A stretch of 64,000 nucleotides of DNA, taken from positions 1 through 64,000 of the forward strand of contig JAHEZL010000017.1 of NCBI GenBank assembly GCA_023251095.1, in the 5' to 3' direction. The translations under genes and the position numbers were made by a program. The stretch comes from Flavobacteriales bacterium (lineage in GTDB: Bacteria; Bacteroidota; Bacteroidia; Flavobacteriales_C; GCA-002722245). Within the stretch, counting starts at the first letter, position 1. Each line of letters starts with the position of its first letter. This document shows, piece after piece, positions 20,691-40,923 of the stretch. Under the pieces are notes generated by a model that was given only the letters and a program-made list of their open reading frames with translations, did no database searches and was not told the origin of the DNA.

Positions 20691-22187
20691 TTAATCAATA
20701 ATTTTTCTTCTTCGCAATTCGGTCATGAAGGAATCCCTCACTATAAAATAATCGGGACTCCTGTCGGCAAAGGCATCATCTAAATCGGGATGAACGGGAA
20801 GTTGACCTTCCAATGATCCTGCATATTTTCCTGCAAGCAAAGCCAAAGCGTGTTTTTTTACCTCGGCAGGATCATACTTTTCCAAAAGTTTTTTCCTTAC
20901 CAGTTCCGGTAAATCCCAAAAATTCGGGGAAAACGAAATGGTATTGGTATTGTTGAAGGCATATTTGCCGAACATAATTGCAGGAATGCCCATAAACATA
21001 GCTTCCAGGGCTGCCGTTCCAACAATGGTAAATACTAATTTCGATTGCTTGATGACTTCGTAACTGCTTATTTTATCATTCAACAACAAAACATTTTTAT
21101 TGCTCAGTATATCTTCATAAAAACTAACGTCCCTCACCCCAACCATCGTTGGATGATCTTTTACCACCAGGTACATATCTGCAGGCAAAGCCGAGGCAAT
21201 GTTCTTCACTAAATAATTTTGTTCAATGAAAAACTTACCCAATGAATCAACAGTGTACTCCGGCTGAAAATGAAGGAAAAACGAACAGAATTTAACGTTG
21301 GGAATCTCATTCAATACCAATTCAGCGTATGCTGCATGATCCTTTTGCGCTTTTTTAACCCTGGTGAATTTTTTAAGCAATGAAGAATCTACCTGACTAT
21401 AACGCACATTATTTACCAGTTCTTCTTTTTGCTCGTTCAGCTTCCTGTATGCCTTCCATTTTTGAATGATGGTGCTGAAGGAATTAGAACTAAGCTTGTT
21501 GTATCCTATGCTTAAATTCTTTTTGTAATAATCGAAATTAATAGTGGTTTGTTTTTTTGTAATGATCCTTTCATAAACAGGAACTACAACATCCAGGATG
21601 TCCTGAGGAATATCCTCAGTCAAATACTTCCTGTAATTTTCCAACGCAAGATCCCAATTCCAATACCAATCGTCATCCACCGAATAACGGGAAAAATATC
21701 TTGTTCCTATCGCACATAAGTAAGGCAATTCATCTCTTTCGAAAATTCGTTTTGTCAATCGGTAAATGGCCATGGTTGATTCGCCAAAACCCAATACCGG
21801 CGCGTATTTTTTATAGTAGTCCATGAATTTATCCACAGCAAAATTTAAATACTGAACGATAAAACTCTTGTCTTTTTTTGCTCTTATAAAGCGATCCACT
21901 TTAACGTCTTCCCAGAAAAAATTGTCATTGAAATGCTCTTCTAATTCAACAATATTTTTACTGATTTTCAGGTCGGTTACTTTTATGTCGGGATTGTAAA
22001 CAAAGCCATCTATAATATCAACCACCTCATCAAATACATCATACTGTTTTCCTATTTCAACATCTTCTCTTCCATGTACAAATAAAATCACCTTGTTATC
22101 AGGCGACGCCATGCGAAACGACTCGGAAAATGCAGTATACCATTTTATCAAAGAGGCATGTGCCCATACAAACATATACTTACTCAT
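20691..22187 (-). CDS. Putative glycosyltransferase, capsule-polysaccharide-biosynthesis-like
   Basis: C-terminal KLVFTIVGTAALEAMFMGIPAIMFGKYAFNN resembles capsule GT nucleotide-binding half. Confidence 0.45.
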   Translation of the reverse strand: MSKYMFVWAHASLIKWYTAFSESFRMASPDNKVILFVHGREDVEIGKQYDVFDEVVDIIDGFVYNPDIKVTDLKISKNIVELEEHFNDNFFWEDVKVDRFIRAKKDKSFIVQYLNFAVDKFMDYYKKYAPVLGFGESTMAIYRLTKRIFERDELPYLCAIGTRYFSRYSVDDDWYWNWDLALENYRKYLTEDIPQDILDVVVPVYERIITKKQTTINFDYYKKNLSIGYNKLSSNSFSTIIQKWKAYRKLNEQKEELVNNVRYSQVDSSLLKKFTRVKKAQKDHAAYAELVLNEIPNVKFCSFFLHFQPEYTVDSLGKFFIEQNYLVKNIASALPADMYLVVKDHPTMVGVRDVSFYEDILSNKNVLLLNDKISSYEVIKQSKLVFTIVGTAALEAMFMGIPAIMFGKYAFNNTNTISFSPNFWDLPELVRKKLLEKYDPAEVKKHALALLAGKYAGSLEGQLPVHPDLDDAFADRSPDYFIVRDSFMTELRRRKIID

Positions 22188-22723
22188 ACGTACTCTTTTT
22201 TTAATATCGAATACATTTCCAGATCAAGGTATTCTCCGTTTTTAAATAAGAAATCGCGCAAAACGCCTTCCTTCTTCATCCCTGCTTTTTCACAAATTTT
22301 TATCATGGCCTTGTTCCTTGAAGTTTGTCCGGAAAAAACACGATTCAAATTCAAAGTTTTAAAAGCATATTCCAGCAAAAGTTTGTAGCACTCATAGCCT
22401 ACTCCTTTTCCCCAGGCCGATTTCTCGCCAATGAGGATAGCCAGCTCTCCTGATTTGTTGATCCAGTTGATGGATTGTAACGACACGTTGCCCACATGCT
22501 CATTGTTTTCTTTCAGTCGGATAGCGAAAACAAAATTATTCTGGCTCTTCTGAATTTCTTCCACATAGGCACGGGCACGGGCTTCATTGTTGGGAAAAGT
22601 AGCGTGGGCATTGTCGCGACATACCTCAGAGTCGTTCAACCACTGAATGTATTTATCGCTAATATCGTCCACCGTTAACGGCGAAAGATAAATTTTGTCC
22701 CCGGTTAAGAAAGGATTAATCAT
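22184..22723 (-). CDS. GNAT-family N-acetyltransferase (RimJ-like)
   Basis: IYLSPLTVDDISDKYIQWLND, LAILIGEKSAWGKGVGYECYKLLLEYAF, NKAMIKICEKAGMKKEG. Confidence 0.82.
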   Translation of the reverse strand: MINPFLTGDKIYLSPLTVDDISDKYIQWLNDSEVCRDNAHATFPNNEARARAYVEEIQKSQNNFVFAIRLKENNEHVGNVSLQSINWINKSGELAILIGEKSAWGKGVGYECYKLLLEYAFKTLNLNRVFSGQTSRNKAMIKICEKAGMKKEGVLRDFLFKNGEYLDLEMYSILKKEYV

Positions 22724-23714
22724 TTTTTAAAAAATTATACAATTCGTCTTTCAATTTGTGTCCCTCCGTCACCACCTTACACTTCATCTCGTCAAATTTA
22801 AACAATTCTTGTGTCCTATTCAGCTCCACCCTCAAAACATTCTTTTTCATCAAAAGAGCTTCCACCACCATGTTTGAAAACATCCCGATTACATAATCGG
22901 CATAGTAATTCATTATTTTGGGATCCATATCCCTCACCTCCCTGATCTTCAGTTTTTCTGAATCGTAGCGGGCGATGATACCGGCATACTTCCCTTCCAC
23001 ACAGCGCGGATGCAGCTTAATGAGCACGTCATAGTTTTCTGCACGCCCCTCTTTTTGCAAAGTGCTGATTTCTTGCAGCACAGCTTCCAAAGTGGAAAAC
23101 TCATCAAATCCTATATCCGGCAAGTTATCCTTTACAGGATCGGAAATAAAGAGGATGGTTTTATTTTTTTCTACGCCGAGGAGTTGATAAAACTGCTCTT
23201 TCGAGAGTTGCGGACGGTAATCTTCAATCAACCGGTAATAGGGATTGCGATGCACTTCAATGATCTCCGGCGGGATTCCTTCCTTCTCAGCATCAAGACG
23301 GGCAGTTTCATTGAGCACCCATACCCCGGAAGGAAAAAATGCTTTTCCGTCCTTTAAAAAGCGATGAATGAAATTCACCCAATGGTCGATAAACGAAATA
23401 CTTTTGATGCCTTTTTCATTGGCGGTACTCACCCATAAAGCTTCGCGATTGCCAACAGAAGTGCCTAAAAAAAGGAGTTCGGGGAAATGTTCAATAAATA
23501 TTTTTTCAATGGCTTCCCTGCTGAAATCAATGGGTTGTACAAAGGGACGGATCTGGTCGTTCACATAACCGTCGGTACTGGTGTAAAAAAGAAAATCTTC
23601 TTTGGTCCACCCCTGTTGCATCAGCAGACTGATGAGGGAATATATAGTGTTTTGAGCCGCAGGATCAACGCCTACAAAAATGGTTTTTCCTTTTGGGAAA
23701 TCATTATAATTCAT
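22716..23714 (-). CDS. Hypothetical protein, possible GT-B fold transferase
   Basis: Central KTILFISDPVKDN and C-terminal YYADYVIGMFSNMVVEALLMKKNVLRVELN resemble GT-B/polysialyltransferase-like proteins; position in nonulosonic acid operon. Confidence 0.4.
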   Translation of the reverse strand: MNYNDFPKGKTIFVGVDPAAQNTIYSLISLLMQQGWTKEDFLFYTSTDGYVNDQIRPFVQPIDFSREAIEKIFIEHFPELLFLGTSVGNREALWVSTANEKGIKSISFIDHWVNFIHRFLKDGKAFFPSGVWVLNETARLDAEKEGIPPEIIEVHRNPYYRLIEDYRPQLSKEQFYQLLGVEKNKTILFISDPVKDNLPDIGFDEFSTLEAVLQEISTLQKEGRAENYDVLIKLHPRCVEGKYAGIIARYDSEKLKIREVRDMDPKIMNYYADYVIGMFSNMVVEALLMKKNVLRVELNRTQELFKFDEMKCKVVTEGHKLKDELYNFLKND

Positions 23715-25005
23715 TTTGTCTTTGAATTATCTCATCCATGTGTTGGTCTACTTTATAGAAAGCTTCCACTACCTGCTCCATATCGGATTGTGACATTGAC
23801 GAACGCATGAATTCGTGCGTGATCAATTGTTTTTCATGCATTTTTTCCACCACCGGACAAGAACCTTTGGCGTAGTTGAAATCTTCGGGGTTTCTTCCGT
23901 GGAAATGAATTTTTCTTTTTTGATAAATGCCTTGTAAATACAACGGACGCACGTAACCGCCACCTATCAGCGGATCTTTTTCACGCATGTAGGATGAAGG
24001 CAATTCAGCAGAAATCGCTTTAAGGTATTTTTCCCTGCTCAGTCCGTGATTTTTCTCCTCAAAATATTTGATCGGCTGTACATAATAGCAATGCTTGTAA
24101 ATATCGGCAGGAATAAGAGGATCGAGGTAAGTAATGCCTGTCAGCTCTTTTTGCAGGAAGTTGGCGTTTTTAATGCGCGATTCCAGTAAAGCATCAATTT
24201 TTTTCAATTGCTCTATTCCCATCGCCGCTTCCACTTCAGGAAAACGGAAGTTAAAACCGAATAAATTCGTGTAATCTGTAACGCCCTTGGCATCAGCCAC
24301 CGCTTCGGCATGGTTACGGATGAGCTGGCAACGTTCTGCATAATAATCGTCGTTGGTAGTGATCACACCACCTTCACCTGTATGGATATGTTTGTGGTAG
24401 TTCAAGCTGAAAACTCCCATGTGGCCCAAAGTACCTACAAATCTTCCTTTGTATTTCCCGAAAGGCGCCTGGGCACAGTCTTCAATCACTACAATATTGT
24501 GTTTTTTCGCCAGTTCCATGATAGGATCCATATCCACAGGATGACCGAAAATATGCACTACCAGTATGGCTTTCGTGCGAGAAGTAATTTTTGGTTGTAT
24601 GGTTTCTACAGATAAACAGAAATTGTTTTCGTCAATATCGGCAAACACCGGAATACCTCCCCAAAAAACGCAGGAGATGGCAGAGGCCGACATGGTGTAA
24701 GGCGAAACAATCACCTCATCACCGGGCTGAACACCTGCAGCACCCAAAGCAGCAACGAGTCCGCTAGTGTTGGAGTTAACGCTGATGGCATATTTGGCTT
24801 CATTTTTCTCAGCCCACATTTTTTCAAATTCCTGCACTTTCGGACCGCCGAAAAAGTCTTCATGCCAGCATCCCAGGTACTTGCTCAACACGCCTGTACG
24901 CATGGTTTCCGTCACTGCTTGTATTTCTTCTTCGCCTATTGTGTTGTAGGCTTCGAATAATTTTTCCCTAACCGGTTTTCCGCCAAATACTGCTAATTTA
25001 CTCAT
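23704..25005 (-). CDS. DegT/DnrJ/EryC1/StrS aminotransferase
   Basis: SVNSNTSGLVAALGAAGVQPGDEVIVSPYTMSASA, VIEDCAQAPFGKYKG, FSLNYHKHIHTGEGGVITTN (PLP Lys). Confidence 0.9.
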   Translation of the reverse strand: MSKLAVFGGKPVREKLFEAYNTIGEEEIQAVTETMRTGVLSKYLGCWHEDFFGGPKVQEFEKMWAEKNEAKYAISVNSNTSGLVAALGAAGVQPGDEVIVSPYTMSASAISCVFWGGIPVFADIDENNFCLSVETIQPKITSRTKAILVVHIFGHPVDMDPIMELAKKHNIVVIEDCAQAPFGKYKGRFVGTLGHMGVFSLNYHKHIHTGEGGVITTNDDYYAERCQLIRNHAEAVADAKGVTDYTNLFGFNFRFPEVEAAMGIEQLKKIDALLESRIKNANFLQKELTGITYLDPLIPADIYKHCYYVQPIKYFEEKNHGLSREKYLKAISAELPSSYMREKDPLIGGGYVRPLYLQGIYQKRKIHFHGRNPEDFNYAKGSCPVVEKMHEKQLITHEFMRSSMSQSDMEQVVEAFYKVDQHMDEIIQRQNEL

Positions 25006-25967
25006 GATGCATTTTTTATTTTCTGTATGATATCAAAAATATGTTTTTCATTGCTAACCGAAGAATCATTGTCGCTCTTTCCTTCCAAAATTTGCGCAAT
25101 CTTATCGCAAAGATAATATCCATATCGATCCAAACCGGTACTCTCTTTTTCTTTTTCAGGTAAGAGATTTACATAACCCGGAAATAAGGGATCGCTTTTA
25201 AGTGAGAATACATCGGCCCTTCCACAGAAATCGTACAATTTCACTCTCTTTTTTTCAAAAAACAAATCCAGCTCAATCACGCTGTATTGCCTCTCATCCA
25301 ATGCAGAAAACACTACGGGAAATTGCTCCTGTTTGCTTTTAACGTCAAGGGTAAAAGAAAGGGAAAGATCTTCGGGTTTGTAATCGTTTTTTGAATTGAA
25401 AATAGGATTACAAGTAATGGTTTCTGGCTGGAAAAGATAAGAGATAAGGTCGAGTAAATGCGAACCATTATTGCGCAAACCCTTTGAATAATATACGTTT
25501 CCGCTAAGCGTCTTGCCGAAATCTCCTGCAGCAATTTGTTTCTTGAGTTCCTGAAAATACGGAAGGTATTTCCGCACGTAATTGACATAAATTTTGGATG
25601 AATGCTCGAGCCATTGCTGCGATACCGCTTCCGACCAGAAAGGTTTTTCCACCACAAATAATTTGATTTCGGGACGGTCTTTCAATTGCTCGAGGTAACG
25701 CAGATTCACTTCGGGACTCGCTGCCAGCACCACCACTTCGGGATAGCTTTTCACTTCCGATAAATCAGCAATAACAGGCACTCCGGGAAAACGCTTTATT
25801 GCTTCAGCACGCAACTCTTCTTTGATATCGAGTAAAAAAGAAAGTTCAAAACCTGGATGATGGTAAAAGGATTTGGAATGGCTCAAAAAGGTAGCCGTAT
25901 CCGTCACTTCCTTATCGTAGGTCATGCCGATATTCCCCAAACCAATTATGCCTACCGTGTGCTTCAT
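25002..25967 (-). CDS. Gfo/Idh/MocA-type NAD(P)-dependent oxidoreductase
   Basis: VGIIGLGNIGMTYD, FVVEKPFW; ATG/stop overlap with DegT gene. Confidence 0.75.
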   Translation of the reverse strand: MKHTVGIIGLGNIGMTYDKEVTDTATFLSHSKSFYHHPGFELSFLLDIKEELRAEAIKRFPGVPVIADLSEVKSYPEVVVLAASPEVNLRYLEQLKDRPEIKLFVVEKPFWSEAVSQQWLEHSSKIYVNYVRKYLPYFQELKKQIAAGDFGKTLSGNVYYSKGLRNNGSHLLDLISYLFQPETITCNPIFNSKNDYKPEDLSLSFTLDVKSKQEQFPVVFSALDERQYSVIELDLFFEKKRVKLYDFCGRADVFSLKSDPLFPGYVNLLPEKEKESTGLDRYGYYLCDKIAQILEGKSDNDSSVSNEKHIFDIIQKIKNAS

Positions 25968-26746
25968 CCCTTAGAAAAATGCTTTTGGAATTCTATGTCG
26001 TTGAATACGGAATCCTTTTGCAATTCCAGCAATTTCGGGTTCTTCTTCATGTACTGCACCACTTCTCTTACGTTGTATTCTTTGCCTTCCGCAGCAGCGG
26101 CTTCAATGATATTTTTGATGAGCAAATAATCTCCTTTATTGTCGAGAGTTACTCTCAATTCAGGCCAGCGGATTTCTTCTTCTGCCACTACAGCTTTCAA
26201 AGAATATTCACCGCTTTTGTAGATGTATAAACTTACGTGTTCGCGGTCTTCCTTGCTTTGTGTTTTTTGATTGACTTCTTTCAGCACATTAAAACCGAAA
26301 GCCTGTACATCGTAGCCATCGGGATAACTGCGTACATGCGCGTTGGATACGTAATCCGCATCGCTGTTCAAATATTCCTGCACCACGAGGTCGATCACTT
26401 CAGGATCAATCAGCGGACAATCTCCGGTAAGCTCCACAATCACATCGGAATTCACCGAAGCCTGTGCATCCAAAACCCTTTGCAAAACATCTTCTTCACT
26501 GCCCTGAAATACTTTAACGCCTAATTTTTTACATAAGTCTACAATGGGCGTATCCGTTGCGTTTACAGTAGTAGCCACCACTATTTCATCCACCAGTTTT
26601 GCTCTTCGTATTCTTTCCACCATGTGCTGCAACAATGGTTTGCCGTCGGCCAGCATCAATACTTTTCCGGGCAAACGGGAACTGGTCATACGTGCTTCAA
26701 TGGAAGCCACTACTTTTAAATTTTCTTTTTTTCTCATATTATCCAA
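25964..26746 (-). CDS. SpsF-type cytidylyltransferase (copy 1)
   Basis: VASIEARMTSSRLPGKVLMLADGKPLLQHMVERI, VIVELTGDCPLIDPEVID. Confidence 0.85.
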   Translation of the reverse strand: MDNMRKKENLKVVASIEARMTSSRLPGKVLMLADGKPLLQHMVERIRRAKLVDEIVVATTVNATDTPIVDLCKKLGVKVFQGSEEDVLQRVLDAQASVNSDVIVELTGDCPLIDPEVIDLVVQEYLNSDADYVSNAHVRSYPDGYDVQAFGFNVLKEVNQKTQSKEDREHVSLYIYKSGEYSLKAVVAEEEIRWPELRVTLDNKGDYLLIKNIIEAAAAEGKEYNVREVVQYMKKNPKLLELQKDSVFNDIEFQKHFSKG

Positions 26747-27782
26747 TTAAATCCCAGCTGAGGGGAGTTCCTTGTTTGATATCTGCGTTGGCTTTTTTGG
26801 TGAGCGCCACATCAAAATATTTTGGTTTTAATCCTGTGCCCGGACGCACCACACGCACATTTTTTGCAGTCAGCGCTTCTCCTTTTTTGATGTCGGCTGC
26901 AGCAAATAATGATCTCTTGAACAACAGCGATTTCTCTTCTACTTTGCTCACTCCGTAAGTCACTTTTCCGAGAGATAAAAAAGCTCTTTCCGATTCTTCC
27001 ACCAATGATTTCAATTCATACGGTTCTATGGAAAAAGCTGAATCTACGCCACCATCGGCTCTTCTTAAGGTAAAATGTTTTTCAATCACACGGGCGCCCA
27101 AAGCAACAGAAGCGATGGAAACGCCAACACCCATTGTATGATCCGACAAACCAACATGCACACCAAACAATTCTCTCATATGGGGGATGGTTAAAATATT
27201 AGTGTTTTCAGGCGTTGCCGGATATGTACTAGTGCATTTCAATAAAATAAGATCCTTGCAACCCGCTTCTCTCAGGGTTCTCACGCCTGTTTCTAAATCG
27301 GCTAAACTCGCTGCTCCTGTGGACATGATCACCGGTTTTCCGGTTTTGGCAACTTTACGCAACAGAGGAATATCGGTATTTTCAAAAGAAGCAACCTTGA
27401 TGACAGGCACATCCAGATCCATTAAAAAATCTACTGCCGTTTCATCAAAAGGGCTGCTGAATACTTCCATTCCTTTTTCCTTCGCTCTTTTAAAAATGGG
27501 TGCGTGCCAATCCCAGGGCGTATAAGCTTCCTGATACAATTCATACAATTCGCGGCCATGCCACAATGAATTCGGGTCGGTGATGGTGAGTGCGCCCTTC
27601 ATTGTCATGGTATCGGCCGTATAGGTTTGCAATTTTATGGCATGTGCGCCGGAAGCAGCCGCAGCGTCAACAATTTCCAAGGCTCTGTTAAGATCCCCGT
27701 TGTGGTTTCCCGACATTTCCGCAATAACAAAAGGCTTGTGATTGTCTCCTATCGTATGTTTTCCTATTTGAATGTCCTTCAT
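26739..27782 (-). CDS. pseI: Pseudaminic acid synthase-like NeuB family protein with SAF domain
   Basis: PFVIAEMSGNHNGDLNRALEIVDAAAASGAHAIKLQTYT, KPVIMSTGAAS, LLKCTSTYPA, C-terminal SAF. Confidence 0.92.
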   Translation of the reverse strand: MKDIQIGKHTIGDNHKPFVIAEMSGNHNGDLNRALEIVDAAAASGAHAIKLQTYTADTMTMKGALTITDPNSLWHGRELYELYQEAYTPWDWHAPIFKRAKEKGMEVFSSPFDETAVDFLMDLDVPVIKVASFENTDIPLLRKVAKTGKPVIMSTGAASLADLETGVRTLREAGCKDLILLKCTSTYPATPENTNILTIPHMRELFGVHVGLSDHTMGVGVSIASVALGARVIEKHFTLRRADGGVDSAFSIEPYELKSLVEESERAFLSLGKVTYGVSKVEEKSLLFKRSLFAAADIKKGEALTAKNVRVVRPGTGLKPKYFDVALTKKANADIKQGTPLSWDLIG

Positions 27783-27787
27783 CGCAA

Positions 27788-28258
27788 TTAATTTAATGGT
27801 GTAAAGATATATTTTAAATACAGCGGGTGAGCGCTGTCTTCCTGTAATTTGAATCCTGCTTTTTCAAAAGTTTTTATGGATGAGATATTCTCTCTTTTGA
27901 TCAATGAAAAAATACGAATGTTTTTTCCGAAGCGCTGAACATATTCGGTCAGTGCCATTTGCAACATTTGCAAAGCATAGCCCTTTCCCCTGTGTTGCTG
28001 GTCCACGCTAATGTCCACTTGTAAATAGTCTCCTTTATCAATTCGTACTTGTCCTACTGCTTCTTTCTCTTCATTCACAAAAACCAGTAATAGCGCTTCC
28101 TCCTCCTTTAATTTTTTGCTGAACCAGAGATGGTGATTCTGAGGTGAAATCTGCGCTTCATTGAAGGAGTTTTTTCGCACATCCGCATCGTTGGCCCATT
28201 GCAGATACAATGCTTCATCAGCAGCAGTGGCGGTTCTATGCGACAGTTGACTCATCAA
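27788..28258 (-). CDS. pseH: GNAT-family acetyltransferase, PseH-like
   Basis: YLQWANDADVRKNSFNEAQISPQNHHLWFSKKL, VDISVDQQHRGKGYALQML. Confidence 0.75.
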   Translation of the reverse strand: MMSQLSHRTATAADEALYLQWANDADVRKNSFNEAQISPQNHHLWFSKKLKEEEALLLVFVNEEKEAVGQVRIDKGDYLQVDISVDQQHRGKGYALQMLQMALTEYVQRFGKNIRIFSLIKRENISSIKTFEKAGFKLQEDSAHPLYLKYIFTPLN

Positions 28259-28261
28259 AAT

Positions 28262-28972
28262 TTAATTTATGCTTCTGATAATCATGAAAGCTTCCGCATA
28301 ATTTTCTCCCACTTCAATGCCTCTTTTCTGAGCTAAAATAGTGAGTGCTTCCGGAGAGCGCGGGTGAGGATAAGCGCGCTTTTCAAACTCGTAGGACTCC
28401 ATCGCCTTAATTTTGGCATCTACGTTTTTCTTTTTCAAGCCTACGTACATGTTGGGACGGAAATACAAAGGATGATTGAAGGCCTGCCATTCTGTTGAAG
28501 ACGGCGTTTCAAAGGTGATAATGGTTTTCACCATTTCGTGCGACATAGGGCGACAGCCTGTGATCACCGCCTGGAAAGTCAACTGATGATCCACATTGGT
28601 ATCTCCGCCGTGGTGCGTAAAAATCACAGAAGGTTTAAATTCTTCTTTTTCCTTCTCAATCACTTTCACCAGATCCAGCACATTTACATCGTCAAAACGA
28701 TTGTCGGGAAAATCATAGATCCCCACAGATTCAAAGCCAACAGCTTTAATCGACGACTGTATATTTTTACGGTGTTGTTTCAGTTCCTTGTTCCATTTTG
28801 CGGCATCGCGCTGATCGGAACGGGAAGTAATTCCTTCGCCTAAAATAATGGCGCGAATCACGCAATTGTATTCATTCACCAGTTTATGGATGGTTCCGCC
28901 GAGGCCTAAAACCTCATCATCAGGATGCGCCACTACGGCCAATATCCTTTTATTTCTTAACGATTCTAACAT
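28262..28972 (-). CDS. PIG-L family (LmbE-like) deacetylase
   Basis: ILAVVAHPDDEVLGLGGTI, PSVIFTHHGGDTNVDHQ. Confidence 0.9.
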   Translation of the reverse strand: MLESLRNKRILAVVAHPDDEVLGLGGTIHKLVNEYNCVIRAIILGEGITSRSDQRDAAKWNKELKQHRKNIQSSIKAVGFESVGIYDFPDNRFDDVNVLDLVKVIEKEKEEFKPSVIFTHHGGDTNVDHQLTFQAVITGCRPMSHEMVKTIITFETPSSTEWQAFNHPLYFRPNMYVGLKKKNVDAKIKAMESYEFEKRAYPHPRSPEALTILAQKRGIEVGENYAEAFMIIRSIN

Positions 28973-29624
28973 GGGTGTTTAAAATATCTTTGGTTTCTAA
29001 ATTAGCATTTGTAAATTCTATCCGGAAATGTTCTGTTTCTAAATAAGAATGAGGATAGCCTTTGGCATCCAGCATCCTGATATGATCATACAGTTGCTCC
29101 AGGGATTCCAGCGCAGCAATGTTGCTGTCTTCCGGTTTTCTTCTTTTGAACAAAACCACTTCACCTTCCTGCTGACGGGGCGAAGGATTGGTGGCCACTA
29201 TTTCAACAATCATTTCTTTCATCAATTCGCCTGCTCTTACAAAAATCTCGGTGGCGGTGCCGCTTAATTCAAGATCTTTTTTCAGGTAAATGTCACCGGT
29301 ATCAATTCCCTCGGCTACTTTAAGCGCAGAAAGTCGGGTGCTCTTATGTCCGCGCACAATCAGGTTTTGCAAAGGACTCCCTCCTCTTCCGTAAGGCAGG
29401 TCCGTCATGTGAAAAACCACGCAGTTAAAGGAGGAATAAATGGATTTGGGAATAATATCCGACCAATGCGGAAAAAATATATAAGCAGGATTCAGGTCTT
29501 TTAAAGCTTCGGGATTTAACTCTGCTTTTGATTTTATGAAACCAACGTCGTCACCAAATTTTTTCCGGAGAAAATCTTCCAGTTCAGCGTATGCAGGATT
29601 GACATTGGCAATCAATATTTTCAT
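28950..29624 (-). CDS. Formyltransferase-family protein (methionyl-tRNA/sugar formyltransferase-like)
   Basis: FNCVVFHMTDLPYGRGGSPLQNLIVRGHKSTRLSALKVAEGIDTGDIY. Confidence 0.85.
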   Translation of the reverse strand: MKILIANVNPAYAELEDFLRKKFGDDVGFIKSKAELNPEALKDLNPAYIFFPHWSDIIPKSIYSSFNCVVFHMTDLPYGRGGSPLQNLIVRGHKSTRLSALKVAEGIDTGDIYLKKDLELSGTATEIFVRAGELMKEMIVEIVATNPSPRQQEGEVVLFKRRKPEDSNIAALESLEQLYDHIRMLDAKGYPHSYLETEHFRIEFTNANLETKDILNTHVRIVKK

Positions 29625-29653
29625 TCAGCAAATCTAAAATATTATAGGATCAA

Positions 29654-30673
29654 TCACAATGAAGAAAACACTTTTAAGAAATTCTGGTCCGAATGGCCAT
29701 CCACCACTTTTCTTTGTGCGGCCAGCAGCTGGTTTATTTTGGCTACATCGCCTGCCAGATGCTGAAAATATTCCAGCAATTCGGCAGAGGAAACTTTGGT
29801 AAAATCACCCACACTCACCAGGCAGTTTCTTTTTAAAAAACCATTATGGATTCCTATCTGGTTATCGATGTAATACCCGCCGAGATAACCCATTCCAACA
29901 GCACATATTTCATACGATAATCCGCTGGTGGGAGCAATGGCAATTTCACATTGGCCCATCAATGCAGCCATTTCCTCCGCATTTAAATTGTAATACACTT
30001 TTACTTTCAGTGCAGTACTTTTTAAAAATTGCTGTATTTCGGTTGTAAAAGGAAAAGTAGAAGCCAGTACCAAATGCAGCATCAATGGATGATTAATGCC
30101 CTCCAGAGCTTGCAGTGTTTTTAAGGTAACATTGAAATAATCGGCTCCGCCAAAACAAATGAACACATTTTCAACCTTTGAAATTTGTCGCTGCTGCTTA
30201 GCCATTTTTAAAAAAGGCGGACGCAGCATCGCGTATTTTTCACCCAGGCAATATTGTGTGTTTTCACGCTTTTCAAAAGCGTTTACAGGCAAATCTACTG
30301 CGTGGTTAATGATCACATTGGCCTGCGGAAAATCTTTGGCAAAATCATCAATCAAAGCCAAAGCTGCACCGCTGGCTTTAATTACTTTAAAATATTCTTC
30401 GGTGAACTGGTAGCCGTCAATTACAATAACATCGCCGGCATGGAGCATTTTTGCTACTTCCCGCGCTTCTTCCATCAAGGCAATATCGTTCAATTTTATG
30501 CAGCTGAATTTATTTTCCTGGACCAGATTGAAAGCAATTTCTGCGGAATCTTTTAAGATAAAACTACAATCAAATTTTTCTCTCAGCATGGAAGCCAGCG
30601 CCAAACAACGGGTCAAGTGACCCAATCCCACTTTGGTGCTTGCATCGGCCCTGAAAAAAATTCTTTTGTTCAT
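29654..30673 (-). CDS. pseG: UDP-2,4-diacetamido-2,4,6-trideoxy-altropyranose hydrolase-like (PseG)
   Basis: IFFRADASTKVGLGHLTRCLALASML, VFICFGGADYFNVTLKTLQAL. Confidence 0.85.
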   Translation of the reverse strand: MNKRIFFRADASTKVGLGHLTRCLALASMLREKFDCSFILKDSAEIAFNLVQENKFSCIKLNDIALMEEAREVAKMLHAGDVIVIDGYQFTEEYFKVIKASGAALALIDDFAKDFPQANVIINHAVDLPVNAFEKRENTQYCLGEKYAMLRPPFLKMAKQQRQISKVENVFICFGGADYFNVTLKTLQALEGINHPLMLHLVLASTFPFTTEIQQFLKSTALKVKVYYNLNAEEMAALMGQCEIAIAPTSGLSYEICAVGMGYLGGYYIDNQIGIHNGFLKRNCLVSVGDFTKVSSAELLEYFQHLAGDVAKINQLLAAQRKVVDGHSDQNFLKVFSSL

Positions 30674-31996
30674 TTATAAATGTTTCCTGAATACAGGTTT
30701 GGTTTCCGGACCGATAAGGTACTTGTCTACCCCGTTTTGCAATGCCTGCTGATACACTTCACAACTTTCGGCAAAAGCATTGATAAAGTATTTTATATCC
30801 TCTTCGCTGTGACTGAAACAAGGCACGAAAGCACCCTGATACAACACCCCGCGGCGAATCATTTCTTGTTGCACTAAAGTCCGGAATACCAGAGAAACAC
30901 TGCCTTTCTCATCTTTAAACAGCGCATAGCTGAACCAGTTGGTGCCGCCAATATGTATGTTTTTTTCCAGACCTTTTTCGGCAATCGCTTTTTTGAGTCC
31001 GGACATTAATAAATCACCCAGTTTATGGTTGTGTGCAATCACATTGTGTTTTTTAAACTCTGCTATAGTAGCCAATCCGGCAGCCAAAGCATGTGTTTCG
31101 CCACCGTGTGTTGTGCTCGCCAAAAACACTTTTTCTTCACCTGTTTTTCTGATGCCGCCCAACTCCATTACCGCTTTTTTTCCGGTGAGCGCACAAAAAG
31201 AAAATCCATTGGCAATGCCTTTTCCCCAGGTGCACATATCCGGCTCCACCTTGTATTTTGTGGTTGAACCGGGCAAGGCCGATTTAAAACCTGAAATCAT
31301 TTCATCGATGATGAATAAGGCTCCGTTTTTATGGGCCAGCTCAATGGCTTCTTTCAAATATTTCCCCTGCGGCTGATCGTCTTCTTTCTCAGGTTCGGTA
31401 ATGATACAGGCAATTTGGTTGGGATACTTTTCAAACAAAGCCTTTAACGATTCTATATCGTAGGACTTGAAAGTCAATGACAATTCCTTGGTTTTTTCAG
31501 GTACTCCTCTGTCGCAAGCCGTTTTTCCAATGAACCAATCGTCTACCGAATAAAAAGGATGATCTCCCGGAAAAGCAACTAGATCTCTGCCTGTATAAGC
31601 CCGCGCTAACTTAACGGCAGCAGTAGTTACAGAAGATCCGTTTTTGGCAAATTTGATCATGTCGTGACAGGGAATCAAAGCTAAAAAAGCTTCTGCCATT
31701 TCTTTTTCTATATAGCTCGGACGTTGAAAATTAACGCCTTTGTACAATTCTTCTTTTACTTTTTCCAGCACCGGTTCGTAAGCGTGACCTAAACTCACGG
31801 AAGTTAATCCCATGGAGCAATCCAAAAACTTATTGCCATCAATGTCCCACACATAAGCTCCTTTACCATGACTGATGGCAGCCGGTGCCAATTGAGGAAA
31901 CTGATCATCACCTTTGGAATAGGTATGCGCTCCGCCGGGAATCAAATCATGAATCACCGCTCTGTAAGCATCAGAATTTTTGTACTTATTTTCCAT
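30674..31996 (-). CDS. Class III PLP aminotransferase (glutamate-1-semialdehyde aminomutase-like)
   Basis: LIPGGAHTYSKGDDQFPQLAPAAISHGKGAYVWDIDGNKFLDCSMG, FIIDEMISGFK, TWGKGIANGFS; start placed at internal ATG (MENKYKNSD) rather than ORF start 32035. Confidence 0.88.
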   Translation of the reverse strand: MENKYKNSDAYRAVIHDLIPGGAHTYSKGDDQFPQLAPAAISHGKGAYVWDIDGNKFLDCSMGLTSVSLGHAYEPVLEKVKEELYKGVNFQRPSYIEKEMAEAFLALIPCHDMIKFAKNGSSVTTAAVKLARAYTGRDLVAFPGDHPFYSVDDWFIGKTACDRGVPEKTKELSLTFKSYDIESLKALFEKYPNQIACIITEPEKEDDQPQGKYLKEAIELAHKNGALFIIDEMISGFKSALPGSTTKYKVEPDMCTWGKGIANGFSFCALTGKKAVMELGGIRKTGEEKVFLASTTHGGETHALAAGLATIAEFKKHNVIAHNHKLGDLLMSGLKKAIAEKGLEKNIHIGGTNWFSYALFKDEKGSVSLVFRTLVQQEMIRRGVLYQGAFVPCFSHSEEDIKYFINAFAESCEVYQQALQNGVDKYLIGPETKPVFRKHL

Positions 31997-32744
31997 CTTT
32001 ATTGATTGATTTTTGGTAGCCTTCGTTTCGGGCAAACTGGTTGTTTAATGCGGAAAGATTTTCGCTTTCAATCGCTTGTACATATTCTAGCCAAGTTTTA
32101 TCGCTACCGTATTTTTTTACCAGGTGTTCAATTAATTTAAAATCATTTTCTTCGTCGACAGTCATTCTTAAATGACCATAATTTTTATCGTTCACAAAAG
32201 AAAAAGCCTTGAAAATATTTTCTCCTTTTACATCAGAATTCCCCCAGATATAAGGTGTAACGTGTTCTCTTTCGGAAGTTAATTTTGCTTCTTTCCAGGC
32301 TTTTTCCAAAGCGGAAAATTTAAATACTTCCACATCCTGCCCGTCGGGAAAGTGCGGATCGAGCGTATTGGAGCAATAATCAACATTTTTTGCAAGGGCG
32401 GTTTCAATCACTTTATCTACTAAAGCCGCATCCAACAAAGGACAATCGGAAGTAACCCTTACTATCCAGTCGGGCCGGAAAGGCAAAGCCGACTGGTAAT
32501 ACCTGTCGAGAACGTCATTTTCACTACCTCTGTAAGTTTTGAAATTTAAGGAATGTGCCAGGGCTTCAATTTTTTCATCGGCATCAGCCACGGTAGTAGC
32601 AACAATTATCTCGTCTACTTTTTTGCATTGACGCAATCTGTTCAAATGAATTTCGAGCAATGTTTGTCCGTTAACTTCTTTCAATACTTTTCCCGGTAAG
32701 CGTGAAGAACCCATTCTTGCCTGAGTGATAAGTATTGCTTTCAT
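31986..32744 (-). CDS. SpsF-type cytidylyltransferase (copy 2)
   Basis: ILITQARMGSSRLPGKVLKEVNGQTLLEIHLNRL, VTSDCPLLDAALVDKV. Confidence 0.87.
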   Translation of the reverse strand: MKAILITQARMGSSRLPGKVLKEVNGQTLLEIHLNRLRQCKKVDEIIVATTVADADEKIEALAHSLNFKTYRGSENDVLDRYYQSALPFRPDWIVRVTSDCPLLDAALVDKVIETALAKNVDYCSNTLDPHFPDGQDVEVFKFSALEKAWKEAKLTSEREHVTPYIWGNSDVKGENIFKAFSFVNDKNYGHLRMTVDEENDFKLIEHLVKKYGSDKTWLEYVQAIESENLSALNNQFARNEGYQKSINKDGK

Positions 32745-33607
32745 TTCCAGTTGACAGGATTTAACAAAGTGATTTCTTGCACTTTTATAGTTTTATTCAC
32801 TACGTCCCTTACCTCAAATTTAGGCAAATCCTGAATTAAGTCCACGTTTGTTTGCAATTGATTGAGATTATCCACACCAAAAAGCACTTTATCAATATAG
32901 CTTTGCTGTAAAACATACATGAGCGCCAGTTGTTCAACGGTTAAATTCAAATCCTGCGCAATTTTATGAATGCCCAGTAAATACGGCTTTAAGGGAAGTA
33001 ATTTAGAAGGCACTTCCTCTGTATTTTTAAAAAACAGGCCTTGCAAAAACACGGAACGCACATGAATTTCTTTTCCTTTTTCTTTGGCTTTCAGCAACAG
33101 TTCCCCGCGACAATTATTATTGTCGAGAACATTAAACGGCAACTGAATCAAATCAATTCTTTCATCATTAATCGCTTCTTCCAGCTCATTGTTGGTGTAA
33201 ACCGAAATGCCGATTTTACGAAGTTTCCCTTCAGCCTTAAGCTTTTCCAGCTTGCCAATTTCCTGCAGGTGGTTTTTGTAATCGGCAAAACTATGGAACA
33301 ACAAAGCCTCCATCACAGCGATGTTGAGTATTTTTAAATCGTGTGAAAATTCATTTTCATTGAATACACCGTCGTGTACATGAAATTTTGAAATAACGTG
33401 AAAGGGCTGCGACTGCTGATGAAATTCACCTATCACCTGCATAGCGGTTCCGTATGCTTTTGCGGTATCTACAAATTTTATGTTTGATTTTTGGGCAAAA
33501 TCCAAAATGGAAAGCGCTTCTTTCACAGAAGGTTTTCCGGTAGAATTATTAATTCCGTAATCTAAACCTAACTGAACTGTTCCTAAAACAATTTTATCGA
33601 AATACAT
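32741..33607 (-). CDS. Aldo/keto reductase family protein
   Basis: IVLGTVQLGLDYGINN, FVDTAKAYGTAMQVIG, RIDLIQLPFNVLDN. Confidence 0.82.
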   Translation of the reverse strand: MYFDKIVLGTVQLGLDYGINNSTGKPSVKEALSILDFAQKSNIKFVDTAKAYGTAMQVIGEFHQQSQPFHVISKFHVHDGVFNENEFSHDLKILNIAVMEALLFHSFADYKNHLQEIGKLEKLKAEGKLRKIGISVYTNNELEEAINDERIDLIQLPFNVLDNNNCRGELLLKAKEKGKEIHVRSVFLQGLFFKNTEEVPSKLLPLKPYLLGIHKIAQDLNLTVEQLALMYVLQQSYIDKVLFGVDNLNQLQTNVDLIQDLPKFEVRDVVNKTIKVQEITLLNPVNWK

Positions 33608-34758
33608 TATTTAAAAAATAACCTTACGGATTGAATGACATGCTCCAGTTCTTCGTCTTTGAGAGACGCGTACATAGGCAGACTGATGCATTTTTCATAA
33701 TAAACTTCCGCCACAGGGAAATCGCCTTTTTTGAAACCCAGAGATTTATAATAAGGCTGCATATGAACAGGAATATAATGGATCTGAGGAAAAATGCCTT
33801 TTGAAAAAAGATGGTCGTACAATTCTTTTCTTCTGTCGGTTTCAATCACAAAAAGATGATAGGCGTTGAACACCCCTTCTTCTGTTTGCTGATATTTTAC
33901 AGGTAAATCGGAAAAAGCCTTGCGATATTTATCTGCAATTTCATGGCGACGCGCAATACCCTGATCGGCTCTGTTCAGTTGCGATAAAGCCAGTGCAGCA
34001 TTGATATCTGAAATTCTGTAATTGTAGCCCAAATCCTGCATCTCATAGTACCAGCCGCCATGGTTTTCTTTGAGCAAAGCAGCGTCCTTCGTGATGCCGT
34101 GGGTACGTAGCGATTTTAATTTTTCGTACAACTCTTTACTGTTTGTTGTAATCATTCCGCCTTCTCCTGCAGCAATGTGTTTTACCGGATGAAAAGAAAA
34201 ACAGGAAAGATCAGAATACACTGTGCTTCCGCACTTTATTTTTTTCCCTTTTGAATCGTTAAAATATCCTCCTGGCGCATGGCAGGCATCTTCTACTACC
34301 CAAAATCCATGCGCTTTTGCGAGTGCAGATATTTTTTCCAATTTCACCGGACAACCGGCAAAAGCAACAGGAATAATTCCGGCGAAAGTATTTTTAGGAT
34401 GACTTTTAAGCAAAGCTTCCAGTTTCACTACATCAATGTTGTAATCGTTGGCGTCAATATCTGCAAAAACAACTTCTGCACCGGCATATAAAACGCAGTT
34501 GGCAGAAGCAACAAAGGTAATGGGAGTGGTAATTATTTTTTGTCTGGGCTGTAATCCCAAAGCGAGTACCGCCATGTGCAAGGCCGCGGTGCCATTGCAA
34601 ACCGCTACTGCATATTTTGCGTCAACGTACTCGGCAAACCGCGTTTCAAATTCTAAAATTTTTGGACCCTGGGTAAGAAAATCAGATTGTAAGGTTTTAA
34701 TTACTTCCGAAATGTCCTCGTTAGTAATTTCCTGTTTACCGTAGGGAATTTTATACAT
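33607..34758 (-). CDS. pseC: UDP-4-amino-4,6-dideoxy-AltNAc aminotransferase (PseC)
   Basis: MYKIPYGKQEITNEDISEVIKTLQSDFLTQGPKI; DegT fold, SCFSFHPVKHIAAGEGGMITTN. Confidence 0.92.
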   Translation of the reverse strand: MYKIPYGKQEITNEDISEVIKTLQSDFLTQGPKILEFETRFAEYVDAKYAVAVCNGTAALHMAVLALGLQPRQKIITTPITFVASANCVLYAGAEVVFADIDANDYNIDVVKLEALLKSHPKNTFAGIIPVAFAGCPVKLEKISALAKAHGFWVVEDACHAPGGYFNDSKGKKIKCGSTVYSDLSCFSFHPVKHIAAGEGGMITTNSKELYEKLKSLRTHGITKDAALLKENHGGWYYEMQDLGYNYRISDINAALALSQLNRADQGIARRHEIADKYRKAFSDLPVKYQQTEEGVFNAYHLFVIETDRRKELYDHLFSKGIFPQIHYIPVHMQPYYKSLGFKKGDFPVAEVYYEKCISLPMYASLKDEELEHVIQSVRLFFK

Positions 34759-34763
34759 AGGAT

Positions 34764-35780
34764 TTACACAGTAAAAGTTGAATCAACGTGCTCTATAATC
34801 AAGGATCTTAATTCCTCAGGTGTCAACCACTGATCATTGGTTCCCGAACAATATTTAAAGCCCATCGCCACTCTTTTTCCGTTTTTCGCTTTCATCAGAT
34901 CTTCCGGATTCCAAGTTGGAGTGGTTGGTAAAATCACATAATATTTAGGGAATTCAATGGTACTCAATGAATCGGTTTCAGTGATCATGTCTTCATGTAA
35001 TTTTTCCCCCGGACGTATACCTACATCTACCAGTGTACATTTTGGCGCAATGGCCTCGGCAACCGCAGTAATTTTATAAGAAGGAATTTTAGGCACAAAA
35101 ATCTCGCCGCCCCAGGAATGCTCCAAAGCATACAAAACCATATCTACTCCTTCGTTCAAAGTGATATTAAATCTTGTCATCTCTGTATGCGTGATAGGTA
35201 AAGTTCCGCTTTTTCTTTTTTCAAGAAAGAAAGGAATCACTGATCCACGTGATCCCATTACGTTTCCGTAACGCACCACTGAGAATTTTTTATTGGTTTC
35301 ACCACGAATATTATTGGCAGCTACAAACAATTTATCGGAACACAATTTTGTAGCACCATATAAATTGATTGGGGCAGCAGCTTTGTCGGTAGACAATGCA
35401 ACAACATCAGTCACGCCTGTTTCTAAAGCAGCGTTGATGATGTTTTCAGCACCCATTACATTGGTTTTGATAAACTCCATCGGATTGTATTCGGCAGCAG
35501 GAACCTGTTTCAAAGCAGCTGCGTGAATAACGATGTCAATATTTTCAAAAGCTCTTTTCAACCTTTGAGGATCTCTTACATCTCCTAAAAAATACCGCAT
35601 AGCCGGATATTTACTTTCCGGAAATTCAATAGACATTTCATATTGTTTCAATTCGTCTCTTGAAAAAACCACCAGCTTTTTAATGCCCGGATATTGTTTT
35701 AAAATCGTACGAATAAATTGTTTTCCGAATGAACCTGTACCTCCCGTAACAAGTATTCTTTTTCCTGTTAAATCAAGCAT
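34764..35780 (-). CDS. pseB: UDP-GlcNAc 4,6-dehydratase (inverting), PseB
   Basis: KRILVTGGTGSFGKQFIRTIL, HAAALKQVPAAEYNPMEFIKTNVMGAENII. Confidence 0.93.
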   Translation of the reverse strand: MLDLTGKRILVTGGTGSFGKQFIRTILKQYPGIKKLVVFSRDELKQYEMSIEFPESKYPAMRYFLGDVRDPQRLKRAFENIDIVIHAAALKQVPAAEYNPMEFIKTNVMGAENIINAALETGVTDVVALSTDKAAAPINLYGATKLCSDKLFVAANNIRGETNKKFSVVRYGNVMGSRGSVIPFFLEKRKSGTLPITHTEMTRFNITLNEGVDMVLYALEHSWGGEIFVPKIPSYKITAVAEAIAPKCTLVDVGIRPGEKLHEDMITETDSLSTIEFPKYYVILPTTPTWNPEDLMKAKNGKRVAMGFKYCSGTNDQWLTPEELRSLIIEHVDSTFTV

Positions 35781-36804
35781 TTTTTATAATTGAATTATAT
35801 TGTTTTTTTATAATAATAGCAGCGATGCCAAGCAAGGCACCCAAAAAGGCACCAATGATTATTGCTTTCACCTTACCGAGTTTCTGCCATGGTAAAGGTC
35901 TTCTAGGCTCATCTATTTTTTGAATAATTACTTCTTTTTCCAAAAGAGAAAAACGGGCAACTTCAAGATTTTTCACGCCTTCTCCGTAGAGACCGTTGAG
36001 CATTTTTATTTTTCTCACCAGTCTTACCTCATCCAGCATCCCTCTGGCTCTGGCCATACCTGCATTCTGGTCCTTCACGCCTGCCAGCTGATTCTCAGCT
36101 ATCTGAAGCTCCGTCTGAAGAGAATCAACTTTATACGTCATGTGGTCAACGGTTCTTTGTTCTTTCTCTACGGATTTGGTAGTATAAAAGGCAATAAGGT
36201 AATTCAATGTATTTTTGACAACTGTAACAGCTATCTCTTCATTTTTTGAAGTAAAGGTAAGCGTGCTGATGCCTTCTTTTTTGGATACGAGTGCAGTATA
36301 TTCATTGAGCATTATATCTCCGTAAACCTGCAATAAAATGGAATCCTGCTCAAAAGAAAAATTCTTATCGTCACCCTTTTTAAAGTGTACAGTAATTTTT
36401 TTCTCTCTTTCCTTATTCATTATTTTTTCAATGTAATGATTCACCAGAAGATCTTTTTTACCATCTACCACAGCGTCCAGCATCAAGCCTCCGTAAATAT
36501 TTTTTTTGGAGCGTACTATCACCGCCAATTTATCGGAGTTAAGGCCATCAGCACCACCTCCGCCTCCCATTCCAAATTGTCGGGCTAATCCGGCATAAGC
36601 AGAAGCCATGCCTCCTTTACCGCCACTATCCATCATGAAAGTCGCAGTAGCTTTATATACCCTTTGAGATCTGCTGGCCAACAGATAACCAATACCCACA
36701 CAAACAGCTACATAAATGAGAACCACCCAAAATCGTTTCTTAATCAGCGCTTTAAACTCCCTGATTTTTGCAACGATGCCATTTATACCTTGTTTGTGCT
36801 CCAT
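35773..36804 (-). CDS. wzz: Wzz-like chain-length determinant protein
   Basis: Two TM segments; start at MEHKQGINGIVAKIREF (36804) avoids overlap with the upstream gene. Confidence 0.78.
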   Translation of the reverse strand: MEHKQGINGIVAKIREFKALIKKRFWVVLIYVAVCVGIGYLLASRSQRVYKATATFMMDSGGKGGMASAYAGLARQFGMGGGGGADGLNSDKLAVIVRSKKNIYGGLMLDAVVDGKKDLLVNHYIEKIMNKEREKKITVHFKKGDDKNFSFEQDSILLQVYGDIMLNEYTALVSKKEGISTLTFTSKNEEIAVTVVKNTLNYLIAFYTTKSVEKEQRTVDHMTYKVDSLQTELQIAENQLAGVKDQNAGMARARGMLDEVRLVRKIKMLNGLYGEGVKNLEVARFSLLEKEVIIQKIDEPRRPLPWQKLGKVKAIIIGAFLGALLGIAAIIIKKQYNSIIKNA

Positions 36805-36818
36805 AATTTTTTTAAGCT

Positions 36819-40360: not shown

Positions 40361-40923
40361 AGAGAATCATCAGCGATTCGATCAGCTTAAAAAACAAAGT
40401 CCTTAATTCTCCTGAGCTGTTACAGCTTACGCTCAAAATCACCGATGAAATAGTAAAATGCTTTCAAAACGACGGCAAGGTTTTGTTTTGCGGAAATGGT
40501 GGAAGTGCTGCCGATGCGCAGCATCTGGCGGCGGAATTCAGCGGAAGGTTTTATTACGACAGACCACCTCTGTTCTCTGAGGCGCTACATGTAAATACCT
40601 CTTATATTACTGCGGTTGCCAACGATTATTCTTACGACGAAATATATGCCCGACTCATTCAGGCCAAAGGCAAAAAAGGCGATGTTCTCATCGGTTTGTC
40701 TACTTCAGGAAATTCAAACAACGTTGTAAAAGCCTTTGAACAGGCCCGCAAACAAGGAATGATTGTAATAGCCATGACGGGTGAAACAGGCGGTAAAATG
40801 AAAGACTGTTGTGATTACCTTGTGAATGTTCCATCCAAAGATACTCCGCGTATACAGGAAGTACACATGTTGCTCGGACACGCCATTTGCGAAATTGTAG
40901 AAAGCAGAATTTTTCCTAAATAA
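40348..40923 (+). CDS. gmhA: Sedoheptulose-7-phosphate isomerase
   Basis: VLFCGNGGSAADAQHLAAEFSGRF, LIGLSTSGNSNNV. Confidence 0.9.
   Translation: MENLKRIISDSISLKNKVLNSPELLQLTLKITDEIVKCFQNDGKVLFCGNGGSAADAQHLAAEFSGRFYYDRPPLFSEALHVNTSYITAVANDYSYDEIYARLIQAKGKKGDVLIGLSTSGNSNNVVKAFEQARKQGMIVIAMTGETGGKMKDCCDYLVNVPSKDTPRIQEVHMLLGHAICEIVESRIFPK

Follow-up and report, generated by a model that had tools for sequence, protein, structure and literature searches.

Introduction

In prophages of Acinetobacter baumannii, the protein EpaA has a CTP_transf_3 domain at 5-192 and, after it, an aldo-keto reductase (AKR) domain at 239-525, and together with the short-chain dehydrogenase/reductase (SDR) EpaB it converts the pseudaminic acid (Pse) Pse5Ac7Ac to 8-epi-Pse5Ac7Ac, as established by nuclear magnetic resonance of the capsule (PMC12053666). 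A bifunctional SpsF-AKR protein is also found after PseC in a Vibrio pse cluster, where it was proposed to replace NeuA (PMC7371886). Pse is a nonulosonic acid (NulO), and triamino members of this group have been known chemically since 2003: according to a passage in PMC3210612, the O-polysaccharide of Flexibacter (Tenacibaculum) maritimus contains a proven 8-amino-3,5,7,8,9-pentadeoxy nonulosonic acid (Vinogradov 2003). We found no gene assignment for such acids in the literature searched. Here we describe an operon in a 64-kb stretch of DNA from a Flavobacteriales bacterium (contig JAHEZL010000017.1, positions 1 to 64,000, hereafter the window) in which Pse synthesis genes are accompanied by two cassettes, A and B, each containing an SpsF-type cytidylyltransferase, an oxidoreductase and an aminotransferase. 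Both cassettes are real units, and they probably serve as two parallel modules for the tailoring and activation of a Pse-type acid.

Two cassettes in a pseudaminic acid operon

The operon occupies the minus strand from 35780 down to roughly 20691. Neighbouring genes are separated by -23 to +29 bp, and most of them overlap. From first to last, its genes are:

34764..35780, minus strand: PseB, inverting UDP-GlcNAc 4,6-dehydratase (TIGR03589, 510 bits, above cut-off)
33607..34758, minus strand: PseC aminotransferase (TIGR03588, 479 bits, above cut-off)
32741..33607, minus strand: cassette A AKR, proposed C8 oxidase, of an SpsF-paired clade of Pse clusters with EpaA-like layout (PF00248, 86 bits; D-Y-K-H tetrad; SpsF/AKR/SDR or SpsF/AKR/AT3 neighbourhoods)
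31986..32744, minus strand: cassette A SpsF-type cytidylyltransferase, SpsF_A (PF02348, 103 bits)
30674..31996, minus strand: cassette A class III pyridoxal phosphate (PLP) aminotransferase, AT3, proposed C8 transaminase (NF004856, 556 bits; invariant PLP Lys259)
29654..30673, minus strand: PseG UDP-sugar hydrolase (TIGR03590, 195 bits, above cut-off)
28950..29624, minus strand: formyltransferase, proposed to N-formylate an amino group (Formyl_trans_C_2, 77 bits, and Formyl_trans_N; also in pse loci L146 and L175)
28262..28972, minus strand: PIG-L type de-N-acetylase (PF02585, 79 bits)
27788..28258, minus strand: GNAT acyltransferase, GNAT1, probable PseH equivalent (TIGR03585, under cut-off; homologue fused to PseG in L027 and L146)
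26739..27782, minus strand: PseI pseudaminic acid synthase (TIGR03586, 485 bits, above cut-off)
25964..26746, minus strand: cassette B SpsF-type cytidylyltransferase, SpsF_B (PF02348, 104 bits)
25002..25967, minus strand: cassette B Gfo/Idh/MocA oxidoreductase (EKP and NNGSH..D motifs; PF01408 in 5/5 aligned family members)
23704..25005, minus strand: cassette B DegT aminotransferase, DegT_B (PF01041, 268 bits; Lys205 invariant)
22716..23714, minus strand: X, a GT-B-like companion of cassette B and possibly a NulO transferase (at least 8 further loci have it linked to Gfo or DegT)
22184..22723, minus strand: GNAT2, a companion of cassette B that is proposed to N-acetylate the new amine (adjoins the cassette in L027, L029, L030, L146, L152, L153 and phage contigs)
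20691..22187, minus strand: Capsule_synth-like glycosyltransferase, translationally coupled to the operon (PF05159, 26 bits; 4-bp overlap)

All frames are intact, and the catalytic residues are present in the AKR, the Gfo/Idh protein and both aminotransferases. A preliminary description of this DNA had reported pseB, pseC, pseG, pseH and pseI homologues in a tight minus-strand run, together with two triplets built from unrelated parts. Every open reading frame (ORF) that it named, those of both triplets included, was found again at the same position and on the same strand. With NCBIfam models at their curated cut-offs, the assignments of pseB, pseC, pseG and pseI hold, but that of pseH is weak, as neither GNAT of the operon passes TIGR03585 (28.8 bits for 27788-28258 and 46.5 bits for 22184-22723, cut-off 93.1 bits). 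The parts are indeed unrelated in the case of the oxidoreductases and the aminotransferases, but not in that of the SpsF pair, both of which are CTP_transf_3 proteins (about 104 bits) with a mutual identity of 37%. To that description we add the formyltransferase, the PIG-L deacetylase, GNAT2, the GT-B-like X and the lack of a canonical PseF: no gene of the operon passes TIGR03584 (cut-off 205.7 bits), SpsF_B scoring 27.5 bits.

Cassette A is conserved in surface-sugar loci

Cassette A is a real unit. When 84,980 species genomes were scanned for AT3 relatives, at least 80 loci were obtained, in 78 of which AT3 could be placed; some apparent absences in the counts come from the simple ORF caller that was used. 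SpsF is adjacent to or fused with AT3 in 66 of these 78 listed loci (fused in 13), and in one contig a single AKR-SpsF-AT3 polypeptide of 954 aa, ended by the contig edge, is encoded (L084:2120-4982). The AKR lies no more than five genes from AT3 in 37/78, and pseB or pseC is present in 33 of these 37. A second class of AT3 loci, mostly without pseB or pseC, has an SDR in place of the AKR, and directly before SpsF a GNAT (15/19) or a formyltransferase (2/19). An oxidoreductase, an aminotransferase, an N-acyltransferase and a CMP transferase beside a NeuB-type synthase are the pattern to be expected if a new NulO amine is made and acylated. AKR and SDR274 are never found together within five genes of AT3 (0/78 listed loci; the chance of this would be 6e-9 if the loci were independent, which they are not). 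Since a looser count finds both in L049 and L114, the two are complementary without being strictly exclusive.

The AKR clade to which the window protein belongs has neighbours like those of EpaA. In Pseudosulfitobacter the order is pseB-pseC-AKR-GNAT-x-[SpsF-AT3]-[PseG-GNAT]-PseI, and cassette A is present in the alphaproteobacterial locus L203. In Maritalea an SDR stands beside an SpsF-AKR fusion (SpsF 14-248, AKR 244-539), and in Priestia the order is SpsF-AKR-SDR-PseG-PseH-PseI. A second, divergent NeuB-family synthase (PF03102, 143 bits) lies between the AKR and a third clade of SpsF in L036:11696-12697 and in 14/78 of the listed AT3 loci, and DUF4910 (aminopeptidase-like) genes were observed near AT3 both in NulO loci and in loci of CDP-sugar type (L098:13183-14466, L185:15840-17165, L186:14513-15844).

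The AT3 of the window passes the cut-off of NF004856/PRK06209, a family named glutamate-1-semialdehyde (GSA) 2,1-aminomutase (556 vs 486 bits). This name is probably wrong for the family, whose neighbourhoods, with SpsF beside it so often, are surface-sugar loci, which speaks against a tetrapyrrole role.

Cassette B exceeds a triplet

Cassette B is also a real unit, larger than a triplet: Gfo/Idh and DegT, usually with an acetyltransferase and X, beside either SpsF or PseF. The triplet of the preliminary description thus contains the conserved core, but the unit extends beyond it and the place of SpsF_B is taken elsewhere by PseF. When the conservation of the two triplets as units was checked, as that description had proposed, the idea was not refuted, each triplet being conserved, fused or horizontally mobile. 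The Gfo/Idh gene alone scores 19.8 bits against its Pfam model (cut-off 24), and all five members of its family match GFO_IDH_MocA. With DegT_B as a marker, cassette B was detected in 4/86 genomes of a Chlorobium-type family and in 6/395 of the class to which the window belongs, and it recurs in Bacteroidia, Chlorobia, Azospirillum, a flagellin island and phages. An assembly artefact was considered and rejected, since the cassette recurs in many genomes.

The core stands beside Pse genes in L027, L029/L120, L030, L146, L152-L154 and L175. L027, from a Chlorobium-type genome, has the order pseB pseC 357aa AKR [SpsF-AT3] [PseG-GNAT1] PseI SpsF_B Gfo DegT_B X GNAT2; it holds both cassettes, and the genes that it shares with the window keep the same order across the class boundary. 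L029/L120 carries PseF and, separately, SpsF_B X Gfo DegT_B GNAT2, while L030 and L146 have the cassette without SpsF_B, L155 has two SpsF genes, and L147, a 3-kb contig, shows Gfo DegT_B X. Plasmid p6 of Azospirillum argentinense carries the same set of cassette B parts, together with NeuB and a gene of NeuA type. In L152, L153 and L154 the order is PseF Gfo DegT_B X (GNAT2), and PseF occupies the position of SpsF_B in these three loci and in phage L180/L187. That the two share one place speaks for a CMP-acid synthetase function of SpsF_B and for the acid as the substrate of cassette B; SpsF_B may therefore fill the ordinary CMP-synthetase slot. The role of a mere PseF replacement, for either SpsF_A or SpsF_B, was dropped because some loci also carry PseF, as was phosphonate CMP-transfer, no phosphonate genes being present among the ORFs examined.

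An IMG/VR contig with bacterial genes (L175:1-13245) has PseF PseG FMT FMT PseI PIGL Gfo DegT_B GNAT2 X (FMT, formyltransferase) beside a Maf transferase and flagellin. As a flagellin glycosylation island with Maf, it ties cassette B to a Pse-type product. Protein X, also part of this island, has a weak match to KpsC 6mgb (E = 0.023), and its GT-B-like character together with this similarity suggests that it may be a CMP-acid transferase. A WbpG-like sugar amidotransferase, often with HisH/HisF, was seen beside cassette B in L146, L152, L153 and L178-L190 (families read from the sequence), which suggests acetamidino groups on the product.

Separate histories of the two cassettes

In a maximum-likelihood tree, SpsF_A falls in a 25-member clade of AKR type (support 100/100), and SpsF_B groups with other Gfo-linked SpsF proteins (99/93), apart from the SpsF_A clade. 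A genus mate of the window genome (L173, on the same contig as L040) has pseB, pseC, AKR, SpsF_A, AT3 (77% identical), PseG, PIG-L and PseI, and no gene of cassette B; DegT_B is absent from all the genus mates examined. An operon with cassette A and without B makes B an add-on and, with the separate SpsF clades, indicates that the cassettes had separate histories and were later brought together.

The window genome has four CTP_transf_3 genes: one KdsB-like (contig C16), SpsF_A, SpsF_B and one of NeuA type on contig C42. The last, the one remaining candidate in the genome for the role of PseF, belongs to a separate locus of legionaminic/neuraminic type (C42:64000-72000, L138) with NeuD, NeuA, Gfo/Idh, SDR, CBS-DegT and NeuB, names again read from the sequence. 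This locus adjoins a thiL-like gene, and L173 has its cassette A operon beside a homologous thiL-like gene, which suggests that surface-sugar loci are exchanged at one site.

Both cassettes occur in phages

The phage nature of contigs with either cassette was confirmed with PHROGs (terminase, portal, head-tail connector, tail, sigma factor, ParB), and the cassettes are set among head and packaging genes of tailed phages. Cassette A is found in L207 and L211, with small and large terminase, GNAT, NeuB-like, pseB, AKR, SpsF, AT3, MptE/Maf-like and portal genes, and related loci are L205 and L208; L206, L209 and L210 are cut copies of L207 (at least 99.9% identical). Cassette B is found in L176, L177 and L190-L193 as SpsF Gfo DegT_B with GNAT, NeuB-like and pseB, and in L180/L187 as PseF Gfo DegT_B GNAT2 within morphogenesis genes. 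The triplets stand as alternatives in similar phage loci, which supports parallel modules. A search of the deposited phage collection gave, at the limits used, no match to the cassette A AKR or to the cassette B DegT. In L177 and L191-L193 there are proteins that have both PF01973 and PF20157, domains of flagellin nonulosonic-acid transferases, and in L207 and L194 proteins with PF01973 only. These phage genes suggest phage-directed glycosylation of virion or host proteins.

Proposed chemistry

We propose that PseB, PseC, a GNAT, PseG and PseI make a Pse-type nine-carbon acid for a surface polysaccharide, and that this acid would then enter two parallel tailoring-plus-activation modules. In cassette A, the AKR would oxidise Pse at its C8 hydroxyl, AT3 would turn the resulting ketone into an amine, and SpsF_A, with cytidine triphosphate (CTP), would give CMP-8-amino-8-deoxy-Pse (5,7,8-triamino-3,5,7,8,9-pentadeoxynonulosonic acid). 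In cassette B, Gfo/Idh would oxidise a hydroxyl of the acid, DegT would aminate it and GNAT2 would acetylate the amine so formed. SpsF_B, standing where PseF is found elsewhere, would make the CMP form, whose transfer X may carry out. The genes, their order, fusions and conservation and the catalytic residues are observed, all substrates and products are inferred, and we regard this two-module explanation as a whole as probable, with considerable room for the alternatives weighed below.

The position of the new amines can be narrowed by chemical reasoning. In Pse, C5 and C7 bear nitrogen, C6 is a ring member and C9 forms the methyl group, which would leave only the hydroxyls at C4 and C8 to be changed. 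The C4 hydroxyl first arises when PseI carries out the condensation, and the C8 oxygen stays ring-bound in the hexose until PseG has acted, so the extra amine would be made after PseG or PseI. Cassette A keeps SpsF and AKR and has an aminotransferase for the SDR of the EpaA/EpaB system, from which C8 oxidation, transamination and CMP activation are predicted. By this analogy SpsF+AKR appears to be a C8 module with either an SDR or an aminotransferase as partner: an 8-ketone re-reduced by the SDR would give the epimer, and one taken by the aminotransferase the 8-amine. Class III enzymes commonly aminate side-chain ketones of this sort. We therefore predict, after EpaA/EpaB, that the amine of cassette A is at C8. 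For cassette B we leave the choice between C4 and C8; the usual targets of Gfo/Idh and DegT enzymes are ring carbons, and C4, weakly favoured, is a guess from this habit. The preliminary description had each cassette oxidise and then aminate a sugar or side chain, which fits the catalytic residues, the N-acyltransferases beside the aminotransferases and the action of EpaA/EpaB at C8 of Pse (PMC12053666), but the modified carbon is not given by the genes.

The operon has a pair of CMP-synthetases and a pair of candidate transferases (X and the product of 20691-22187), which favours two acids over one doubly modified acid. A bolder version of the proposal, which we offer as speculation that is doubtful as a whole, is that one operon makes two CMP-nonulosonic acids from one Pse precursor, the one aminated at C8 (cassette A) and the other at C4 (a 4,5,7-triamino acid, cassette B), and that the modules circulate in bacteria and tailed phages, the latter using them together with a Maf-like transferase to modify proteins, perhaps those of their own virions. 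We know of no 4,5,7-triamino nonulosonic acid.

Alternative explanations

Several observations weigh against the two-module explanation. Relatives of AT3 (45-49% identity) occur on plasmids of Rhizobium, Sinorhizobium, Shinella and Ochrobactrum in loci with a gene of glucose-1-phosphate cytidylyltransferase type, and neither SpsF nor NeuB is present around them in the Shinella and Ochrobactrum regions inspected; these CDP-sugar-type loci without NulO genes mean that the class III family reaches beyond nonulosonic acids. Members of the AKR, SpsF and aminotransferase families are each also found singly. PseF and SpsF_B are found together in L120, and a PseF-type gene accompanies cassette A in four Chitinophagaceae/Bacteroidia loci, which in both cases blurs the division of labour among the CMP-synthetases. 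The kinship of the cassette A AKR and SpsF with EpaA rests on domain layout and neighbourhood, not on the EpaA sequence. Tenacibaculum (Flexibacter) maritimum is not among the at least 80 AT3 loci listed, and published species primers did not recover it from sets of 301 and 238 Flavobacteriaceae genomes or from two candidate genera; neither result says anything on the species itself. For cassette B, the nearest sequence to DegT_B in the PDB is KdnA (5k8b, 174 bits), nearly tied with perosamine synthetase (173). We hold it to be unlikely that the product of cassette B is a distinct activated amino sugar for the same polysaccharide, unrelated to the Pse acid, which would be built as by WbpB/WbpE/WbpD (Gfo/Idh oxidation, DegT transamination, acetylation) and transferred by X. 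The enzyme classes are those of the Wbp route, inosose and perosamine aminotransferases are likewise good matches to the DegT_B profile, and L028 has Gfo and DegT_B alone with no NulO genes nearby; nearly all other bacterial loci and the phages, however, place the core with PseB/PseI or NeuB, beside SpsF_B or PseF, and in the flagellin island with Maf a nonulosonic acid is the sugar to be expected. A WbpA-type UDP-sugar 6-dehydrogenase was not noted among the ORFs of 15000-45000, a region in which no dedicated search for it was made.

The phage loci with either cassette have PseB and, in the stretch examined, no PseC, so that the cassette aminotransferase might do the job of PseC there. This too counts against the two-module explanation, and it is what best fits a scheme in which both cassettes act at the UDP-hexose stage, the aminotransferases being alternatives to PseC and the oxidoreductases altering a ring carbon before PseG. 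We give this scheme little credence: the bacterial operons, that of the window included, keep a PseC above cut-off beside the cassettes, phages may borrow PseC and PseG from the host, and EpaA/EpaB use Pse from an intact pathway (PMC12053666). It is similarly improbable that cassette A brings no net amination, either shifting the 7-amino group like a GSA aminomutase or epimerising C8 through the AKR alone as in EpaA. Although GSA aminomutases are the closest class III relatives that have been characterised and AKR+SpsF+SDR loci exist for epimerisation, the operon is without an EpaB-type SDR, and the GNAT or formyltransferase that flanks SpsF-AT3 in the SDR-type loci implies a new free amine. 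Mere redundancy, with SpsF_A and SpsF_B as interchangeable CMP-Pse synthetases and the other genes decaying or acting on unrelated substrates, would agree with the missing PseF and with the identity between the two SpsF proteins, but the intact frames and retained catalytic residues, the joint presence of both cassettes in L027 with the shared genes in the same order, and the fusions and mobile phage copies make it very improbable.

Genomic surroundings

Two further groups of genes flank the operon:

17768..20657, minus strand: two membrane proteins, probable Wzx and Wzy (from sequence and position, without Pfam match)
35773..39224, minus strand, upstream: chain-length and polysaccharide-export proteins (TIGR03027, 128 bits, and EpsE, 120 bits, for 36819-39224)

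The export protein and the probable Wzx and Wzy place the operon in the context of a surface polysaccharide. A divergent neighbouring operon (window positions 39338-41621) encodes an HddA-type heptose 7-phosphate kinase, a GmhA-like isomerase and a nucleotidyltransferase, and probably serves the activation of D-glycero-D-manno-heptose.

Comparison with known systems

For the rare triamino acids the cassettes provide a first testable gene candidate. If the proposal is true, SpsF+AKR would be a general C8-oxidation/activation module whose partner sets the product, an 8-epimer with an SDR and an 8-amine with an aminotransferase; surface sugars could be predicted from genomes, the probably misnamed PRK06209 family would be explained, and enzymes for new CMP-sugars would become available. 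The modules in phages suggest that phages drive changes in host surface sugars or glycosylate phage proteins.

Like EpaA/EpaB, cassette A combines an SpsF-type protein and an AKR of similar layout with a Pse pathway, and is mobile with phages. It differs in that its partner is a class III aminotransferase, no EpaB-type SDR being present in the operon of the window, in that its genes are unfused, and in that the expected product is 8-amino instead of 8-epi. The Vibrio SpsF-AKR cluster, by comparison, is without an aminotransferase cassette. The sequence of oxidation, transamination and CMP activation of a ulosonic acid is shared with the Kdo8N pathway of Shewanella (KdnB oxidase, KdnA transaminase, KdsB), but here the acid would have nine carbons, Gfo/Idh or AKR stands for the iron alcohol dehydrogenase KdnB, and an SpsF-type protein for KdsB. 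With the canonical CMP-Pse pathway (PseB-PseF) the window shares PseB, PseC, PseG and PseI, all above cut-off, and differs in having no PseF, two SpsF-type synthetases, a formyltransferase, a PIG-L protein and two extra oxidoreductase/aminotransferase pairs. The acid of Flexibacter maritimus, whose genes are unassigned in the literature examined, is of the product type predicted for cassette A. The combination found in the window is new, and it is a variant of nonulosonic-acid tailoring, not a new kind of system.

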